Assembly (NCBI GenBank): GCA_015061775.1
Contig: SUVY01000018.1
Span: 1 to 41,723 of the forward strand
Direction: 5' to 3'
DNA: 41,723 nt
DNA from: Lentisphaerota bacterium
Lineage (GTDB): Bacteria > Verrucomicrobiota > Lentisphaeria > Victivallales > Victivallaceae
Under the pieces are notes generated by a model that searched no databases, had not been told where the DNA came from, and saw only the letters and a program-made list of their open reading frames with translations. The first letter of the stretch is position 1. Each line of letters opens with the position of its first letter. Both the position numbers and the translations under genes were made by a program. This document shows, piece by piece, positions 2,702 to 41,514 of this stretch.

Positions 2702-3075
2702 GCACAGAGCCAATATAAAAATTGGCTCTGTGCAGGTGCAGGGCAGTCTGCGGTGTACTACGCCGTGACAAGGGGAGGAAGCCAGCCCAACGAGGCTGGC
2801 TAAGTATCCCGCCGCCCGTCGTACGGGCCGCATCGCACGGATGTGAGTGCCTGAGCAGCCAGAAAAGGCTGCTCAGGGGCGGCGGTGAGCCGCCCGGAGC
2901 CGAACGCAGGGAAGAGGCGGACAGCCGGGAGCGGAAAGTCACAATAAAAAGAACAGCAGTCTGAAAAAATCCCCAAAGGCAGATACGTAAAAATAAGATT
3001 TTTACGTATCTTAAGGTGCAGGGGATTCTCCCCTGCCGGGAGATTTTTAAGAGGCGAATAGCCTCTTAAACTCCC
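2702..3075 (+). ncRNA. Candidate structured RNA/DNA element, copy B
   Basis: No protein is evident, but a chain of stable hairpins is. P1: 2702-2714 with 2721-2733 (13 bp). A variable region contains GCCAGCC/GGCTGGC and CCCGT/ACGGG stems. P3: CTGAGCAGCC 2851-2860 with 2867-2876. P4: GGGCGGC 2877-2883 with 2889-2895. A conserved GGAGCCGAACGCAGGGAAGAGG stretch follows in sequence. P6: 2981-2994 with 2998-3011 (14 bp). P7: GCAGGGGA/TCCCCTGC 3018-3036. P8: nested GGGAG/CTCCC and TTAAGAGGC/GCCTCTTAA, 3038-3075. Copy C has the same order with compensatory changes in P1 and P6. Whether it is transcribed is unknown. It does not match group II domain V or any riboswitch I can recognise; a HEARO/omega-RNA relationship is possible but unproven. 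Confidence 0.5.
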
Positions 3076-3124
3076 AAAACACTTGATTGCAAAATAAGGT
3101 GGTTGGCTGTTTTTTATTTTTCTT

Positions 3125-3262
3125 TTATGCTTGCGCTTCGCGCTCGCTTTTTTGCGCTTCGCGCTTGTTTTTTTATGCCTCGCTTTTGCAAAGCTCGGTA
3201 TTGGTGGGAAACCTTTGTTGGAACAAAGGTTCTCCCCCCAAGCCCCCTTTCCAAAAAACTTT
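3125..3262 (-). repeat. Small hairpin repeat family 1 with GCGAAGC-rich tail
   Basis: On the minus strand the unit reads: GGAAAGGGGGCTTGGGG, then the hairpin AACCTTTGTT/AACAAAGGTT (3210-3231), then GAGCTTTGCAAAAGC, then a low-complexity tail with GCGCGAAGCGC motifs (3125-3165). The same unit occurs at 7796-7995, 14322-14460 and 14718-14890. It ends about 15 bp before the metG promoter. Confidence 0.75.
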
Positions 3263-6200: not shown

Positions 6201-7783
6201 TAGCCAAAATACTGACAGGAGCCGGAGTCGGCATATTGACCGGATATACAGCTGCGGTCAGCGGAGGAACGATCCAGCAGCTACTGTTGTTTTTCGGAAT
6301 ATTGCTCGGATTTCTGACAGTAGTCCGCTGTAAAGAACATCCCTATATACAATTTTCAGCGTTGTTTGCGGTGATTTCGGCGCGTATGGTGATGTTCAGT
6401 TCTGAGCTGTCGATTCCGGAAATAGAGGTGCTGCTCAATGGATTTATTTCCGGAGCAGGTTATGCGTTCTGCGGAAAAGAATCTGCGAGCGTGATATCGG
6501 CAAGCCTGTCCGGAGCAGCGGTGTTTGCGCTCTCATTGCTCTTTGTTTCCGGAAGCGGAGAAGCGTCGCTTGCATTTATCTGCGGAGGAGTGAGCCTGCT
6601 GATCAACTTCTTCAAAAACGAAAAACAGCGCAGACCGGCTGTTGCGACGCTGCTGCTGCTGCTTTACAGCGTATTTCCGGCGGGAAACGCGTCACATAAC
6701 GAGAGATTGCAAACGCTTGTAACGGCAGATAAGATGCGCGGAGGAGCGGTGAATGCGATGTGCCTTCCCGGGACAGGAGTGGCGTCAAGAGCACTTGTGG
6801 TGGGTTCTATTCCTGAGCCGGTGACAGATGTGCTGAAAAATTTTCCGGGAATGGAAAGATGCGACACGATAAAACACTACTGTAAACTCTATCCTGTGTT
6901 CAAAAGAAAAGAGAACCAGACGACCTATCCCGTGGTGTTCTGTACCGGAAACGGAAAGATGTGCCGCCTTGCTTCGCGTATGGTGAGCGATGGAGGAGTG
7001 CTGGTGATACCGGAAAAACATGTATCCGAGATACCGTCAGCGTTCAGACATTGGAGCAGATTGAGCAGTGCTCCGGAGTTCATAGTGCTGTCACGAGACT
7101 TTGTGATAGAGACATCAGGAGCAGCGATAGAGAGAAAGATGCAGAGACATCTGGAAAAACTGTGTCAGCCGGGAGTGATTCCCGGAGGAGTGATGTCAGC
7201 GCTGTGTGATTTTCCTGAGAGCCAGGAGCATGGGATAAGGGAGATCGACGGGGGCAAACGAATCAATTACACGCTGTGGTTTTTCGGATTGATATCCGGA
7301 GCGTATCTTATGCTGAGACTGCTGATATTCAGCCGTTTTGACAAAGGAGAGCGCAGATGGACAGCGTTGGAAAACACGGCATCGGCGATACTGCTGTTTC
7401 TGCTGTTAAAAAGACTTCCGGACACAATATTCACAGCGGTGCTGCCGGCGATGCTGTTTTTTGGACTTCCGGTGTGTAAAATATCCGGAATGAAATGGAG
7501 GGTGCTGCAGTGGCTTGGAGCCGGGGTGCTGATTGCGACGATATTCATTCCTGAACTGCTGAATGTATCGCAGGTGCTGATGGCGGTGTGCTGTGGAGTG
7601 ATGTGGAAGAATTTACGAATGGAGAACGGAGCGGTCTATGAGTGGATAGACGGTTGTTCGCTGCTGGGGCTGGTGCTGGGAGCGGCGGTGTATGCGGTGC
7701 TGCTTACGGTGAATGCTCCGGTGGTGTTTGTGGTGGGATTGGTGCTGTTGCTGCGTTCCAACGCGTTGTTCCGCAGCCTGTGA
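6197..7783 (+). CDS. Polytopic membrane protein with central soluble domain, unknown function
   Basis: I do not recognise this 528-residue protein. It has a hydrophobic N-terminal block (about residues 5-165, roughly six membrane segments), a soluble middle (about 165-350) and a hydrophobic C-terminal block (about 355-528, roughly six or seven segments). The middle contains ASRALVVGSIPEPV and, later, MVSDGGVLVIP. These loosely resemble the first strand and the late strand of a Rossmann methyltransferase or aminopropyltransferase fold, as in membrane-fused spermidine-synthase-like proteins, but the glycine-rich loop and acidic catalytic residues are not evident. Its ATGA overlap with nadA indicates translational coupling, though no link to NAD synthesis is apparent. 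The fold is a guess; membrane topology is clear. Confidence 0.8.
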   Translation: MIAKILTGAGVGILTGYTAAVSGGTIQQLLLFFGILLGFLTVVRCKEHPYIQFSALFAVISARMVMFSSELSIPEIEVLLNGFISGAGYAFCGKESASVISASLSGAAVFALSLLFVSGSGEASLAFICGGVSLLINFFKNEKQRRPAVATLLLLLYSVFPAGNASHNERLQTLVTADKMRGGAVNAMCLPGTGVASRALVVGSIPEPVTDVLKNFPGMERCDTIKHYCKLYPVFKRKENQTTYPVVFCTGNGKMCRLASRMVSDGGVLVIPEKHVSEIPSAFRHWSRLSSAPEFIVLSRDFVIETSGAAIERKMQRHLEKLCQPGVIPGGVMSALCDFPESQEHGIREIDGGKRINYTLWFFGLISGAYLMLRLLIFSRFDKGERRWTALENTASAILLFLLLKRLPDTIFTAVLPAMLFFGLPVCKISGMKWRVLQWLGAGVLIATIFIPELLNVSQVLMAVCCGVMWKNLRMENGAVYEWIDGCSLLGLVLGAAVYAVLLTVNAPVVFVVGLVLLLRSNALFRSL

Positions 7784-7795
7784 CCCAGAACCCAA

Positions 7796-7995
7796 AGTTC
7801 TTTGGAAAGGGGGCTTGGGGGGAGAACCTTTGTTTCAACAAGTACTTAAAGTTTTTTGGAAAGGGGGCTTGGGGGGAGAACCTTTGTTTCAACAAAGGTT
7901 TCCCACCAAAACCGAGCTTTGCAAAGCAAAGCGAGACATAAAAAACCGAGCGCGAAGCGCAAGTAAAAAAGCGCGAAGCGCAAAAAAAGTATAGA
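7796..7995 (+). repeat. Tandem hairpin repeat family 1 (one truncated, one full) plus GCGAAGC tail
   Basis: The first unit (7796-7842) contains AACCTTTGTT followed by TCAACA, then breaks off, losing half of the stem. The second (about 7849-7920) is complete, with the hairpin at 7879-7900 and the palindrome GCTTTGCAAAGC. The tail (7940-7990) holds two GCGCGAAGCGC motifs. The units begin just after the stop codon of the membrane-protein gene and could act as a transcription terminator or mRNA end. Confidence 0.75.
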
Positions 7996-8061
7996 AAAAA
8001 AACACCAATACCAAAACAATATTCAAAAAAGTACTTCGCTTTTCTTGAAAGAGGATGGGGT

Positions 8062-12545: not shown

Positions 12546-14324
12546 ATGAAAAATACAATTATGATGCTTGCGGCGATGCTGTGCCTGGGAGCTGCGGCAA
12601 ATCCGATGGAATTCCGGAGCTATAAGCAGACGGTGAAGCTGGAGTTTGCAAGCGAGAAGGAGGCGCAGGAGTCCAAACTGGTTGTGCGCGGACTTCCGGA
12701 TAAGTATGTGCTGGCGTTCACATCGCGCTGGGACGACAGTGCAAAGAGCCACATCAACACCCATAAGGTGATGTCCAAGTACGGAGCGAAGGGCAACTTC
12801 TACGTCGGTGGAAGCATGGAAACCGAGACTCCTGTATTGAAGCACATCATCAAGAACGGATGCCTTGCCGGAGCGCATACCGTAGGACACAATCCGATGA
12901 AGCGTCTGACGGCAAACAGGCACTTCTACGAGTATATGGCGAACCGGCTGTCGATCGAGGTGAAGAGCCAGACTCCGGTGAACACGCAGGCGAGTCCCTA
13001 CGGACACATTACAGGAGACCGGAAAGAGGGAACTCAAAGTATCGGCAGATCGCTGATGGCAACCGGAATAATCGGATCTCCGGACAGCCGATCTCCGGAG
13101 CATTTGAAGAAGCTGGGCTATCCTGACAAGGCGTGTGCGTTCGCGTACCGGGTGGTTCCCGGAGACAGGGTGCCGGATTTGAAAAAGCTCGAGAGCATGT
13201 TGGCGAACTATCTGAAGATGAAGGAGCTGAAAGACAATCCCTGTATCTCGATGTCAACACACTCCTGGCATACGAAGGAGGGCTTGGTGCTGCTCGATGA
13301 GTGCTATAAGCGGCTCACGTCCCACAAGGATTGGTGGAACTGCAACCAGAACGAATATGCGGCATACCGTTATGAATTCCACAATACAGTCATCAGCAAG
13401 AAAGTGACGGGTAAAAGCGTCACATTTGAGATACTGCGTTTTGAACCCTTCGAGCTGGGAGCAGATGTTCCGCTCACTTTCGACGTTGAGGGAGCAAAAG
13501 CGTTGTCCGCGAGCGCAGGAGAGCTCAAATATGACGGAACTCAACTGAAAGTTCCGCATGCCAAAGACCATGTCCTGCCGTCAAAATACGGATACAAAAA
13601 ACTCGATGGAGTGGAACTTGAGCTGACCATTTCCGGAATTGACGGAAAACTGACGGCGAAAATTGCGGGAGAAAACGGCAAAAAGATAAGTGATGTGAGC
13701 CTGACATTCAGGGTATCACCCAAATACAAAACGAGAGTGTTCCGCAAAGACAGCAAAACCGCCGTGGAGAGCGCGGAGTTTGCCCTTGAAACAATAGAAA
13801 AGAGCTACCACTACACAGTCGGAAAACCGTACTATGCGGTCCAAATGGACTACACACTTGACGGAAAGAGGGCGAGACTGTATGCAGACTGCTTCGGAAA
13901 AGAGATAAAACCCGCCCAAAAAGAGCTTATGGACGCGGTGGTGCTGTACGAGCGTAAAAAAGGTTGGAACGGAGGGGCTGAGTTGTCCAAACCTGAGACA
14001 AAGATTCCGGCGGACTTCAAACAATTAAAAGGAACAGAAGCTCCCTATTGCACACCGGGCTCAATGTATATGGGCAAAAAAATACCGAGGAGCGGTTATG
14101 TGGGAGTGGCTGAAATAATAAGCCGTGGAGAGAACCAATATCTGGTGACAGTATTAAGTGATAAAGATGGAGAGATGTACTTCAACGGCGAGAAGCTTCC
14201 GAAGAAGAAGAAGGTAAAGCTGAAGTTCAAGGAAGGGCGCAACCGTTTGGTGATATTGGGCATGAGGAATTACAGCCACGTATTCAGGATCGAGGGCAAA
14301 GTTACCTACACACCCGGAAACTAA
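12546..14324 (+). CDS. Secreted NodB-type polysaccharide deacetylase-like protein
   Basis: This 592-residue protein begins with a signal peptide (about 1-18, MKNTIMMLAAMLCLGAAA). A NodB-homology domain follows: RWDD (61-64) in the place of TFDDG, with D64 the likely metal or catalytic Asp; GNFYVGG (83-89); the metal-binding HTVGH (111-115); ASPYGH at about 150; and a late THSWH (about 237) in the position of the last NodB motif. The remaining roughly 330 residues look like beta-rich domains and are not recognised. It may deacetylate a cell-wall or extracellular glycan; the altered first motif makes activity less certain. A GGGAGGA precedes the ATG by eight bases. A hairpin repeat abuts the stop codon and may end the transcript. 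Confidence 0.8.
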   Translation: MKNTIMMLAAMLCLGAAANPMEFRSYKQTVKLEFASEKEAQESKLVVRGLPDKYVLAFTSRWDDSAKSHINTHKVMSKYGAKGNFYVGGSMETETPVLKHIIKNGCLAGAHTVGHNPMKRLTANRHFYEYMANRLSIEVKSQTPVNTQASPYGHITGDRKEGTQSIGRSLMATGIIGSPDSRSPEHLKKLGYPDKACAFAYRVVPGDRVPDLKKLESMLANYLKMKELKDNPCISMSTHSWHTKEGLVLLDECYKRLTSHKDWWNCNQNEYAAYRYEFHNTVISKKVTGKSVTFEILRFEPFELGADVPLTFDVEGAKALSASAGELKYDGTQLKVPHAKDHVLPSKYGYKKLDGVELELTISGIDGKLTAKIAGENGKKISDVSLTFRVSPKYKTRVFRKDSKTAVESAEFALETIEKSYHYTVGKPYYAVQMDYTLDGKRARLYADCFGKEIKPAQKELMDAVVLYERKKGWNGGAELSKPETKIPADFKQLKGTEAPYCTPGSMYMGKKIPRSGYVGVAEIISRGENQYLVTVLSDKDGEMYFNGEKLPKKKKVKLKFKEGRNRLVILGMRNYSHVFRIEGKVTYTPGN

Positions 14325-14460
14325 AGTTCTTTGGAAAGGGGGTTTGGGGGGAGAACCTTTGTTTCAACAAAGGTTTCCCACCAAAACCGAGCTTGCAAAG
14401 CAAGCGAGGCATAAAAAAAGCGCGACAGCGCAAAACACAAACGCGAAGCGCAAATAAAAT
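14322..14460 (+). repeat. Hairpin repeat family 1
   Basis: The unit starts within the stop codon of the NodB-like gene. It has GGAAAGGGGG, the hairpin AACCTTTGTT/AACAAAGGTT (14354-14375), then GAGCTTGCAAAGCAAGC and an A-rich tail with GCGCGACAGCGC and ACGCGAAGCGC. It has the same polarity as the gene, consistent with a role at the mRNA 3' end. Confidence 0.75.
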
Positions 14461-14461
14461 A

Positions 14462-14715
14462 ACCGGCGGCGGCGCCCCGCGGTCAATCTCGCGCCTTGTA
14501 GTTGCGCCGCTTCGGTCGTTTCGTTTCAAAGGTTGTGAAAAAAGACGACCGGCGGCGGCGCCCCGCGGTCAATCTCGCGCCTTGCAGTTGCGCCGCTGCG
14601 GTCATGTACAAAAGTACACTTCCTTGCTGTGCTCACAGCAAAACGCGACATTGCCACACGGATGCATCCGCCGAGGCAAACCAGGCGTTTGGTGTATGTT
14701 TCCCAAACATACCGA
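14462..14715 (+). repeat. GC-rich repeat family 3, tandemly duplicated copy without promoter
   Basis: A partial unit (14462-14512) with CGGCGGCGGCGCCCCGCGG is followed by a nearly full unit (14546-14715) with the same start, GTACA..GTACAC, CTTGCTGTGCTC and CGGATGCATCCGCC. The related copies at 20664 and 41203 end in TTGACA-N17-TATATT. Here the end reads TTTCCCAAACATACC, so no promoter is present. Confidence 0.7.
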
Positions 14716-14717
14716 AA

Positions 14718-14890
14718 CTAAAGTTCTTTGGAAAGGGGGCTTGGGGGGAGAACCTTTGTTTCAACAAAGGTTTCCCACCAAAACCGAGCTTTGCAAAAGC
14801 GAGGCATAAAAAAAGCGAGCGCGAAGCGCAAATAAAAAAGTGCGACAACGCAAAAAAAACGAAGCGCAAACAAAATACCAAAGCGAACAA
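14718..14890 (+). repeat. Hairpin repeat family 1, with degenerate GCGAAGC tail
   Basis: AACCTTTGTT (14751-14760) and AACAAAGGTT (14763-14772) form the stem, followed by GAGCTTTGCAAAAGC and an A-rich tail with GCGCGAAGCGC. It is a direct repeat of 14322-14460. Confidence 0.75.
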
Positions 14891-19422: not shown

Positions 19423-19563
19423 CCGCGTTCAGACTCTCTGCTTGAGGCTGCTCAGCGGAGGTTGTGTACCTGCGATCTTCTTATAAAAAGGCTCTGCTCC
19501 CGACAAAGGCAAGTGAAAGTAAATAAAAAAGTTTTCCGCTTTTCTTGAAAGGGTGAGAGGGGC

Positions 19564-19621
19564 GCGGGGAGAGAGGGAAAATTTCTTTTCTCGTGAAAAG
19601 AAGTTTTCCCTCTCTCCCCGC
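19564..19621. repeat. Long hairpin repeat family 2, copy d
   Basis: The arms GCGGGGAGAGAGGGAAAA and complement close a TCGT loop through CTTTTC/GAAAAG, with one G-T mismatch pair region. It is preceded by CCGCTTTTCTTGAAAGGG and followed by CATCATCTCCCCATATCAGG, a tail also found at 21028-21047. The 312-bp gap 19423-19734 holds this repeat and the next gene's promoter only. Confidence 0.75.
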
Positions 19622-19672
19622 ATCATCTCCCCATATCAGGAACAAAGCTTATAAAAAAACACTTGATTTTAC

Positions 19673-19701
19673 TTGTTTTTTACCATCTGCTGAGCTATTT
19701 T
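19673..19701 (+). promoter_or_regulatory. Possible promoter of EamA transporter gene
   Basis: TTGTTT (19673-19678) and TATTTT (19696-19701) are 17 bp apart, about 33 bp before the ATG at 19735. Both boxes are imperfect. Confidence 0.35.
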
Positions 19702-20634: not shown

Positions 20635-20663
20635 TTATAAAGCTATGTAAAAGTAAATAAAAG

Positions 20664-20843
20664 TTAATGTCTCAAATGTTGTGAGACAATCTGAACGGCG
20701 GCGGCGCCCCGCGGTCAATCTCGCGCCTTGCATCTGCGCCGCGGCGGTCGTGTACAGAAGTACACTCCCTTGCTGTGCTCGATGCAAAACGCGACCTTGC
20801 CTCGCGGATGCATCCGCCGATGCTGACAAGCGTTTGGCGTATG
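20664..20843 (+). repeat. GC-rich repeat family 3, promoter-bearing copy
   Basis: It starts AATGTCTCAAATGTTGTGAG and contains CGGCGGCGGCGCCCCGCGG, the small hairpin GTGTAC-AGAA-GTACAC, CTTGCTGTGCTC, CGGATGCATCCGCCG and GCGTATG. It then runs directly into a consensus promoter at 20844. It is about 90% alike to 41203-41379 by eye, with differences also concentrated in stems. Confidence 0.75.
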
Positions 20844-20872
20844 TTGACAAAACATATCTTATGTGTTATATT
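20844..20872 (+). promoter_or_regulatory. Consensus promoter at the end of repeat family 3
   Basis: TTGACA (20844-20849) and TATATT (20867-20872) are 17 bp apart, an ideal sigma70-type promoter directed towards the PIG-L gene about 200 bp downstream. The transcript would first pass through a degenerate family 2 hairpin at 20895-21040. Confidence 0.7.
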
Positions 20873-20894
20873 TAAGCGTATAACAATACCAAAT

Positions 20895-21040
20895 AAAAAA
20901 GTTTTCCGCTTTTCTTGAAAGGGAGAGATCCGCCGTCGCCAAGGCTATGGCGGGACAAGGGGACAAGAATAACGAAGCCGACGTTCGGCTTCTTTTCTCG
21001 TGAAAAGAAGTTTTCCCGCTTTCCCCGCATCATCTCCCCA
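20895..21040. repeat. Long hairpin repeat family 2, rearranged copy e
   Basis: The left flank CCGCTTTTCTTGAAAGGGAG and the right arm CTTTTCTCGTGAAAAGAAG..TTTCCCC are kept, but the left outer arm is replaced by about 70 bases of other sequence. That insert includes CGCCGTCGCCAAGGC and a GAAGCCG/CGGCTTC hairpin. Pairing of the outer arms is lost. Confidence 0.6.
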
Positions 21041-21082
21041 TATCAGGAAAAAGCTAATCATAAATAGAAAAGGAGAATTGCC

Positions 21083-23380: not shown

Positions 23381-23384
23381 GTGG

Positions 23385-23425
23385 GGCTGTTGCAAAACCT
23401 TGGAAAGGTGAGCAACAGCCTTTTT
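23385..23425 (+). terminator. Inward-facing terminator-like hairpin at the element's left end
   Basis: GGCTGTTGC (23385-23393) pairs with GCAACAGCC (23412-23420), with an inner ACCTT/AAGGT stem, followed by TTTTT. It reuses the terminal inverted repeat as one arm. It would stop transcription entering from tRNA-Lys. Copy 2 at 41516 keeps the stem but has TTTAT. Confidence 0.65.
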
Positions 23426-23482
23426 CTATTGTTTGAAAGAAGCCAAGCCACGCAGTCCGGCTTGAGAAAACGGAAGGCTCCC

Positions 23483-23518
23483 GAACGGAGAGGAACGGAG
23501 TTGAACGGAGTGAACGGA
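23483..23518 (+). repeat. Short tandem repeat GAACGGA x4
   Basis: Heptamers start at 23483, 23493, 23503 and 23512 with 2-3-base linkers. This is the inverse of the TCCGTTC array at 293-328, and the linkers AGTT and AGT also match. Confidence 0.8.
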
Positions 23519-23624
23519 GATCATGTATGTGGAGAAGTATTCCGCCCGCCATTGTCTGCGCCACAACTTAGCCGTGCATTACGCCGAGAACAACAGCGTG
23601 CAACATACCCAAACGCCAAACACC

Positions 23625-23674
23625 GCCGCAAACATCTGCGTGAGTTTGCGCGATGAGCGCAAAAAATATACCTG
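23625..23674 (+). repeat. Hairpin module upstream of structured element C
   Basis: CGCCGCAAACATCTGCGTGAG and the GTTTGCGCG arm are followed by ATGAGCGC and AAAAAATATACCTG. It is homologous to 2627-2676, but the arms are less perfect. Two related half-copies ending in CAACATACCC and CGACATACGG lie at about 23588 and 23722. Confidence 0.6.
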
Positions 23675-23757
23675 CTTCGCCGCATACGCATAGAAATACC
23701 AATAAAAAAACGCCCCGTATCGCCGCAAAGAACTGCGTGCGACATACGGTAGCAGGA

Positions 23758-24095
23758 GTGAGCCGATAGGAAAATCGGCTCACGACGGGTGCAGGGTGCA
23801 AACCCTGCTGCAGGTCAAGGAATGCATAATTCCTTGCGCATCGCACGGATGTGAGTGCCTGAGCAGCCAGAAAAGGCTGCTCAGGGGCGGCTACTATGCC
23901 GCCCGGAGCCGAACGCAGGGAAGAGGCGGATGAAGCCGGGAGCAGAACGCGGCACCACTAAGAATAGCAGGCTCAATACCCAATCCCCCAAAAAGGCGTC
24001 GGATACATGATTTTGAAAAAATCATGTATCCAGAGGTGCAGGGGACTCTCCCCTGCCGGGAGATTTTTAAGAGGCAAGCAGCCTCTTAAACTCCC
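23758..24095 (+). ncRNA. Candidate structured RNA/DNA element, copy C
   Basis: The order of stems equals copy B. P1 GTGAGCCGAT/ATCGGCTCAC (23758-23783); GCAGGGT/ACCCTGC; AAGGAAT/ATTCCTT; the invariant CATCGCACGGATGTGAGTGC; P3 CTGAGCAGCC/GGCTGCTCAG; P4 GGGCGGC/GCCGCCC with a different loop; GGAGCCGAACGCAGGG; P6 24001-24014 with 24018-24031 (14 bp); P7 GCAGGGGA/TCCCCTGC; P8 TTAAGAGGC/GCCTCTTAA inside GGGAG/CTCCC. Compared with B, three P1 pairs and six P6 pairs change on both sides. It lies inside the 753-bp transposable element. Its product and transcription are unknown. Confidence 0.5.
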
Positions 24096-24176
24096 TCACC
24101 ATACGATGCTGAAACAATAAGGTTTTGCAACAGCCCGCGCCCCTCTCACCCTTTCAAGAAAAGCGAAAAAACTTTT

Positions 24177-25037
24177 TTATTTACTTTTACCTACCTTTGG
24201 CGGGAACAGAGCCTTTTTCAAATCGCAGGTGATGTACTTTTCGGAGTACATCACTTTTGCATGATTGCGTTTGATGATTTCTGTTCCGGTGATTTTGCCT
24301 GTTTTTTTATCTACGGTTTCTCTTATAACTGTTCCGTTGCGGAACCATGAACCGTTTTCCTGAGAGAAGTGTTCGTCAACGCTTTTGATATGGTAAGATG
24401 TTTCTGACGGAACATCTGAACGCAGTTCGGCATTGAGATATTTTTCATCGGTAAAAATTACCAGCTGATAACAGTTCGGAGTGCAGTTTTTGAAGCGGTA
24501 ATCGAGATAGTTGTAACTTATGCTGGTGCCGACTCCGAAGGGAACCTGTCGTCCGAAATCCGGGAAGAGATCGACTCCGTCATGGTGGTGGTGTTCGGTG
24601 ATTTCAAGCGGAGTATGCAGAACGAGCCAGTGTATGAGGTTGCTCAACTGACACAAGCCGCCTCCGATGCCACGGTCAGGCGAGCCGTGCTTTATCATCA
24701 ATCCCTCGCGGTATCCCTTTTTTGCCGAGGTTTTTCCGACAAGATGCCAGAGGGAAAACGTTTCTCCCGGCTGGATCAGCACTCCGGATATTTTAGGGGA
24801 GGCGAGAGCGAGGTTGACGGCTTTGTTTTCCTGAAGTTCCATATCCACGTCTCCGAGCTGCCTGCGGATGAGTGATTTATGTTTGTATATCACGTGCGGA
24901 AGGAGTTTTTCCGACTTGCACCGGCAGAAGCGATCCCGGCTCAAAAGGTCGCTCACCCGGCGCAGAATACAGCACTTCACCACCGATATCCTGTAACACA
25001 GCGGAGATATTTCACAAAATAATTTTCGCTTTTTCAT
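24177..25037 (-). CDS. VanW-family protein
   Basis: This 286-residue protein contains the VanW domain: PGETFSLWHLVGKTSAKKGY and GGGLCQLSNL, followed by EHHHHDGVDLFPDFGRQVPFG. VanW was named from vancomycin-resistance clusters, but its biochemical role is not established, and no van genes lie nearby. There is no clear signal peptide; the N-terminus is basic and cysteine-rich. The gene is monocistronic, with its 3' end next to a family 2 repeat fragment (24140-24176). The ATG at 25037 has only a weak purine-rich site upstream. Confidence 0.85.
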   Translation of the reverse strand: MKKRKLFCEISPLCYRISVVKCCILRRVSDLLSRDRFCRCKSEKLLPHVIYKHKSLIRRQLGDVDMELQENKAVNLALASPKISGVLIQPGETFSLWHLVGKTSAKKGYREGLMIKHGSPDRGIGGGLCQLSNLIHWLVLHTPLEITEHHHHDGVDLFPDFGRQVPFGVGTSISYNYLDYRFKNCTPNCYQLVIFTDEKYLNAELRSDVPSETSYHIKSVDEHFSQENGSWFRNGTVIRETVDKKTGKITGTEIIKRNHAKVMYSEKYITCDLKKALFPPKVGKSK

Positions 25038-41185: not shown

Positions 41186-41202
41186 TTGTTAATGTTTAGT
41201 AA

Positions 41203-41379
41203 ATGTCTCAAATGTTGTGAAGAAAAACGACCGGCGGCGGTGCCCCGCGGTCAATCTCGCGCCTTGCATCTGCGTCGCGGCGGTCGTGTACAAAAGTACA
41301 CTCCCTTGCTGTGCTCGATGCAAAACGCGACATTGCCTCACGGATGCATCCACCGAGGCAAACAAGCGTGTGGCGTATG
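41203..41379 (+). repeat. GC-rich repeat family 3, second promoter-bearing copy
   Basis: This is a near-copy of 20664-20843, again starting ATGTCTCAAATGTTGTGA, with GTGTAC-AAAA-GTACAC, CTTGCTGTGCTC and CGGATGCATCC. It begins 18 bp after the YfcE-type gene and ends in the promoter at 41380. Confidence 0.75.
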
Positions 41380-41408
41380 TTGACAAAATATAACGAATGT
41401 GCTATATT
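41380..41408 (+). promoter_or_regulatory. Consensus promoter at the end of repeat family 3, second copy
   Basis: TTGACA (41380-41385) and TATATT (41403-41408) are 17 bp apart. The spacer differs from that at 20850-20866, but both boxes are identical. It faces a fragment of the family 2 repeat (CTCCGCTTTTCTTGAAAAG) and then the transposable element at 41515. Confidence 0.7.
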
Positions 41409-41514
41409 TAAGCACATATCAAATAACGTTTGTCATCAATTTGAAAAAAATTTTCACAAAAATTGGGACAATACCATTTCATAAGAACTCCGCTTTTCTT
41501 GAAAAGTAGAGAGG

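Follow-up and report, generated by a model that had tools for sequence, protein, structure and literature searches.

The structured repeats at positions 2702-3075 (copy B) and 23758-24095 (copy C) of the window, a stretch of 41,723 nt that makes up the entire contig C65 of a 2.7-Mb draft Lentisphaerota genome, are very probably the inner parts of a MITE-like, non-autonomous element that is related to IS1182-family insertion sequences and replaces stem-loops. This assignment draws on the terminal inverted repeats (TIRs), on transposase fragments adjoining the same ends in related genomes, and on insertion junctions at the feet of a stem-loop in a second dispersed repeat.

Anatomy and distribution of the element

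B and C are structured, as an earlier note on this DNA had described, and its suspicion of a multi-copy mobile element proved right. Searched with B, the source genome gave 57 matching pieces distributed over about 40 places; many of these pieces are contig ends, and some may be the two halves of one copy. Copy A, at the window's left edge, is a 5' half interrupted by the contig end. The coordinates first assigned to C cover its inner part, and the mobile unit extends over 23383-24137. The features of the window are as follows.

1-450 (right limit approximate), minus strand: copy A, partial, at the contig's left end
2702-3075, plus strand: copy B, from P1 to the last hairpin; neither end carries a recognisable TIR (a decayed copy, or one with other ends)
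2734-2828, plus strand: P1-to-core cassette of copy B (GCCAGCC..GGCTGGC and GCCCGTCGTACGGGC type)
2829-2932, plus strand: conserved core of copy B
2981-3011, plus strand: P6 hairpin of copy B
19490-19680, plus strand: dispersed repeat D, intact, with the stem-loop (19564-19621) that is the target type replaced elsewhere
23383-24137, plus strand: copy C, complete TIR-bounded non-autonomous element of 755 bp, identified by a TIR at both ends and by its fold
23383-23399, plus strand: left TIR of copy C, GGGGCTGTTGCAAAACC
23383-23425, plus strand: left-end hairpin of copy C, GGGGCTGTTGC..GCAACAGCC and then TTTTT, resembling a terminator in sequence
23758-23783, plus strand: P1 hairpin of copy C
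23784-23836, plus strand: P1-to-core cassette of copy C, two hairpins, non-homologous to that of B
23837-23943, plus strand: conserved core of copy C (model R1)
23859-23884 and 23885-23904, plus strand: tandem core hairpins of copy C
23905-23920, plus strand: GGAGCCGAACGCAGGG, following the tandem core hairpins of copy C
24001-24031, plus strand: P6 hairpin of copy C
24038-24095, plus strand: two 3' hairpins of copy C (GCAGGGGA..TCCCCTGC; GGGAG..CTCCC)
24121-24137, minus strand: right TIR of copy C, with one mismatch
24138-24212, minus strand: left half of D, directly outside copy C, broken at the foot of D's stem-loop
41514-41723, plus strand: left arm of a further element, 96% identical to 23383-23592, truncated where the contig stops on the right

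Between copies A and B, positions 840-2546 encode an N6-adenine DNA methylase with a TaqI-like specificity domain.

Comparison of B and C confirmed exactly the three pair differences previously listed for P1 and exactly the six listed for the 14-bp P6, with complementarity kept in all of them. The common order of stems attributed to the two copies does not extend to every stem; it fails in the P1-to-core cassettes, which differ and are largely non-homologous. At least three alternative segments occupy this interval among the copies, each beginning with GGTGCA, and the segment GGTGCATCCGTCTTCG..GCCAGCCCAACGAGGCTGGC..GCCCGTCGTACGGGC also replaces the 3' hairpin GCAGGGGA..TCCCCTGC in the copies on contigs C9, C8, C39 and C89. 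The outer stems of P1 belong to unrelated sets among the copies, each fully complementary, and a core-less copy in C24 carries a chimeric P1 that combines two types and has lost full pairing between its arms. The element interior is a hairpin-rich mosaic whose segments are exchanged between copies. The blocks once described as invariant are conserved yet variable: the middle of CATCGCACGGATGTGAGTGC reads GGATGTGA, GGAGAGA or GCAAGAAT and forms the loop of a GCAC/GTGC mini-hairpin.

Other repeats are present in the window. Those at 7772-7997, 14301-14845 and 3105-3260 contain AAAGGGGGCTTGGGGGGAGAACCTTTG and GCGCGAAGCGC units and represent the 3' flank common to copy B and the core-less C24 copy, and a three-copy G+C-rich family (CCGGCGGCGGCGCCCCGCGGTC...) lies at 14516-14740, 20662-20886 and 41198-41422.

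A covariance model of the 107-nt core was searched against the source genome and its relatives within the family. It detected 32 places in the source genome and seven in G002; G007 contributed a single divergent homologue, and the remaining 75 genomes of the family gave no match, so that the core is known from only three species of one genus. The G007 homologue (46.5 bits, C250:781-877, minus strand, L163) lies in a hairpin-rich repeat without nearby TIRs. No match was obtained in phages and plasmids by blastn or in IMG/VR by the exact core pattern, and the same pattern found G002 alone in the genome contig collection. G002 represents a different species: a 3.6-kb stretch next to one of its copies has 76% identity with the counterpart in the source genome. 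Two of its copies are almost base-for-base equal to copies of the source genome from the core to P6, and four others have diverged. The near-identical copies contrast with syntenic DNA at only 76% identity; a transfer or a shared invasion, in either case recent, is the simplest reading of these sequences.

Terminal repeats, transposase fragments and insertion sites

Copy C and most other copies sit within a unit of 600-800 bp bounded by the TIR GGGGCTGTTGCAAAACC. Allowing at most one mismatch, 56 TIR sites were located in the source genome, and the reversed control yielded none. The exact TIR was found in 21 of the 60 genomes searched, the source genome included, all belonging to one genus. 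In relatives, the TIR ends enclose transposase sequence or other hairpin-rich interiors; five loci from other species of the genus (L142, L145, L147, L158 and L159) hold different hairpin-rich interiors inside identical ends.

The transposase sequence connects these ends with an IS1182-type gene. A C-terminal piece ending at a TIR matched DDE_Tnp_1_6 (E 2e-9) and the IS1182 model (E 7e-9), and a 314-aa piece beside a TIR in G003 matched the latter with an E value of 6.8e-31. C-terminal pieces adjoin the TIR in G011 and G003, as fragments only, and in G022 a copy with a deletion (C209) shows N- and C-terminal transposase pieces side by side. The assemblies yielded no intact insertion sequence combining both ends with a full gene, and the link between ends and gene is drawn from fragments. 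In the source genome, the left arm of C94-type copies shows 80% identity, across 160 bp, with the end carrying the start of the transposase, and C47 retains a remnant of that start. Because no match to PF13751, the transposase of the IS1182 family, was found in the source genome, the family is non-autonomous here.

The ends also bear on the proposal, raised in the earlier note, of a relation to HEARO, the IscB omega-RNA. The elements resemble it in being a multi-copy, non-coding structured RNA candidate tied to mobility, and the same likeness could be claimed for group I or II introns, retrons, GOLLD or ROOL. The inverted-repeat ends and the class of enzyme linked to them are different, and the ends, the DDE transposase link and the insertion sites all indicate the IS1182 family. 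An Rfam scan, as the earlier note had advised, returned nothing relevant: HEARO, group I and II introns, GOLLD and ROOL had no covariance-model match at the gathering threshold or at E values up to 10. A retron reading of B and C likewise found no support. We regard membership in any of these known mobile RNAs as highly improbable.

Insertion sites fit the IS1182-type assignment. No target duplication flanks any element with both ends, in the source genome or in relatives, as for IS1272. The six bases outside the element ends are 54% A, against 25% overall, which is the expectation if the stem between a terminator's A-tract and T-tract was replaced. Direct evidence comes from repeat D, whose intact copy contains a 58-nt stem-loop with two 27-nt arms (19564-19621, D75-132); this part of D matches dozens of places in the genome. 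Six element junctions lie exactly at the feet of the stem-loop: after D74 (C96), after D75 (copy C, window 24137/24138), and before D133 (C77, C85 and C13, plus C11 of the other species, G002). Hairpin loss is thus seen on copies of the repeat, and the element occupies the former stem-loop position in D. At a seventh junction, in C9, the break is at D84, 10 nt inside. Copy C has half of D on one flank only, the other flank being DNA behind a tRNA gene, which calls for a subsequent deletion or recombination at that site. For the element at C103:8092-8798, the search for an orthologous empty site with joined flanks gave relatives that match one side at a time, never both; in G015, a terminator-like hairpin stands beside the right-hand gene of this site, and the upstream gene is a different one. 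Repeat D, a second dispersed palindromic repeat, is also present at 20891-21052.

Mini-palindromes of 37-42 bp that correspond to the element's left end alone (GGGGCTGTTGC..GCAACAGCCCC, then a T-run) occur across the genus at positions where terminators are expected, namely at L064 (G000 C34:3979), L103, L107, L111, L117, L120, L121 and L146. They are possibly mobile terminators.

Covariation in the interior hairpins

The earlier note had concluded that the repeats are not mere duplications and are under selection as a folded RNA (or single-stranded DNA). Retention of the fold through sequence change is supported, with compensatory changes now seen on more copies, two other species included. 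The core hairpins (7 variants, three species) comprise 17 pairs with 100% of cells paired and two-sided changes at 4; P6 (8 variants) has two-sided changes at 10 of its 14 pairs and is 99.1% paired, and P1 (9 variants) has them at 5 of 9 pairs with 98.8% paired. In each of the three, both the percentage paired and the covariation score exceeded 500 of 500 shuffles, a comparison in which the counts are inflated by the kinship of the copies and the shuffles are not probabilities. When partner columns were slid by 1-3 positions, pairing was lost in P1, the core hairpins and P6. The covariation is beyond chance, as expected of a structured RNA, and swaps of entire hairpins could also have produced it. 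The step to RNA was too strong, since hairpins and cassettes are exchanged between copies.

One explanation is that the compensatory changes are a by-product of DNA-level events, either arm-to-arm correction or whole-hairpin swaps, with no selection on structure. Near-perfect palindromes can stay perfect through DNA-level processes, and the stems here are nearly perfect palindromes, with 306 of 315 pairs being Watson-Crick. Cassette exchange is demonstrable, and the unrelated complementary sets of P1 outer stems and the single chimeric P1 are of the kind that swapping would leave. It accommodates less well the single-pair differences scattered through the core hairpins and P6, where wobble intermediates occur on just one of the strands. 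We consider this explanation a plausible one, though somewhat short of an even chance.

The wobble pairs were counted by strand. Read on the plus strand, the interior contains 7 G.T and 0 A.C (about six independent), or 4 against 0 under stricter scoring, while elements of other species have 3 G.T and 4 A.C, with no bias. The counts in the element's own family lean toward selection on the plus strand; together with the elements of other species they are not decisive.

These counts enter into a further explanation, in which the interior is a functional non-coding RNA carried by an IS-like vehicle and the covariation stems from selection on that RNA. The compensatory changes in P1, core and P6, the strand bias and a conserved tandem-hairpin core with a divergent, TIR-free homologue in G007 are what such an RNA would produce. 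The dominance of Watson-Crick pairs and the unbiased wobbles of other species speak against it, as do the wholly different interiors within identical ends between species and the confinement of the core to three species of one genus. A pattern scan for sigma-70-like promoters found none in B and C, which also counts against this explanation, and we judge it rather unlikely. Terminator-like sites in a pattern scan numbered 8 in C (1.4 in shuffles) and 2 in B (1.1 in shuffles); a role in termination is supported only by the scan of C, not by that of B.

Proposed mechanism and significance

IS1272, a member of the IS1182 family, replaces hairpins, often terminators, without target duplication (PMC5678879; PMC4923244). 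By analogy with it and from the junctions described above, we infer that an IS1182-type transposase, provided in trans at present or until recently, would recognise the element ends and substitute the element for a stem-loop. The stem-loop, in many cases a transcription terminator, would be lost in the process. The terminator-like left end of the element would soften the loss of that terminator. Interior hairpins may stay complementary through selection on a folded strand, through DNA-level correction and whole-hairpin exchange, or through both.

As to function, we tentatively conjecture that the interior most likely serves, as a structured array, to halt or insulate transcription where the element has inserted, rather than as a guide RNA. 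Considerably more speculative, and in our view improbable, is a role of the hairpin array in the transposition system itself, as a strand-specific folded RNA or single-stranded DNA used by the IS1182-type transposase or a host factor; its stem-loops would also serve as landing sites, and elements would grow as mosaics by hairpin-for-hairpin swaps.

The elements share inverted-repeat ends, an IS1182-type transposase, hairpin replacement and the lack of target duplication with IS1272 and TnSha1, both IS1182-family members of staphylococci (PMC5678879; PMC4923244). They differ from these in having no transposase gene within the element or the genome, in an interior that is a hairpin mosaic, and in their host, a genus of Lentisphaeria. 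Like MITEs derived from bacterial insertion sequences, they are short, non-coding and multi-copy, with IS-derived ends and a decayed transposase remnant in some copies; in contrast to those, they replace a stem-loop rather than duplicate a target, and their long interior carries exchangeable, covarying hairpins. A search for MITEs in Lentisphaera gave no papers within the literature collection used.

Covariation in multi-copy palindromic DNA, as a warning from this case, need not imply a functional RNA. Together, our results would extend stem-loop-replacing transposition, known from staphylococci, to a gut genus of Lentisphaeria and to elements that lack a transposase. Dozens of ends, together with occupied and intact copies of one target repeat, are available in one genome, and the sister species have other interiors inside identical ends; all of these form a natural data set on how a DDE transposase may recognise and remove hairpins.
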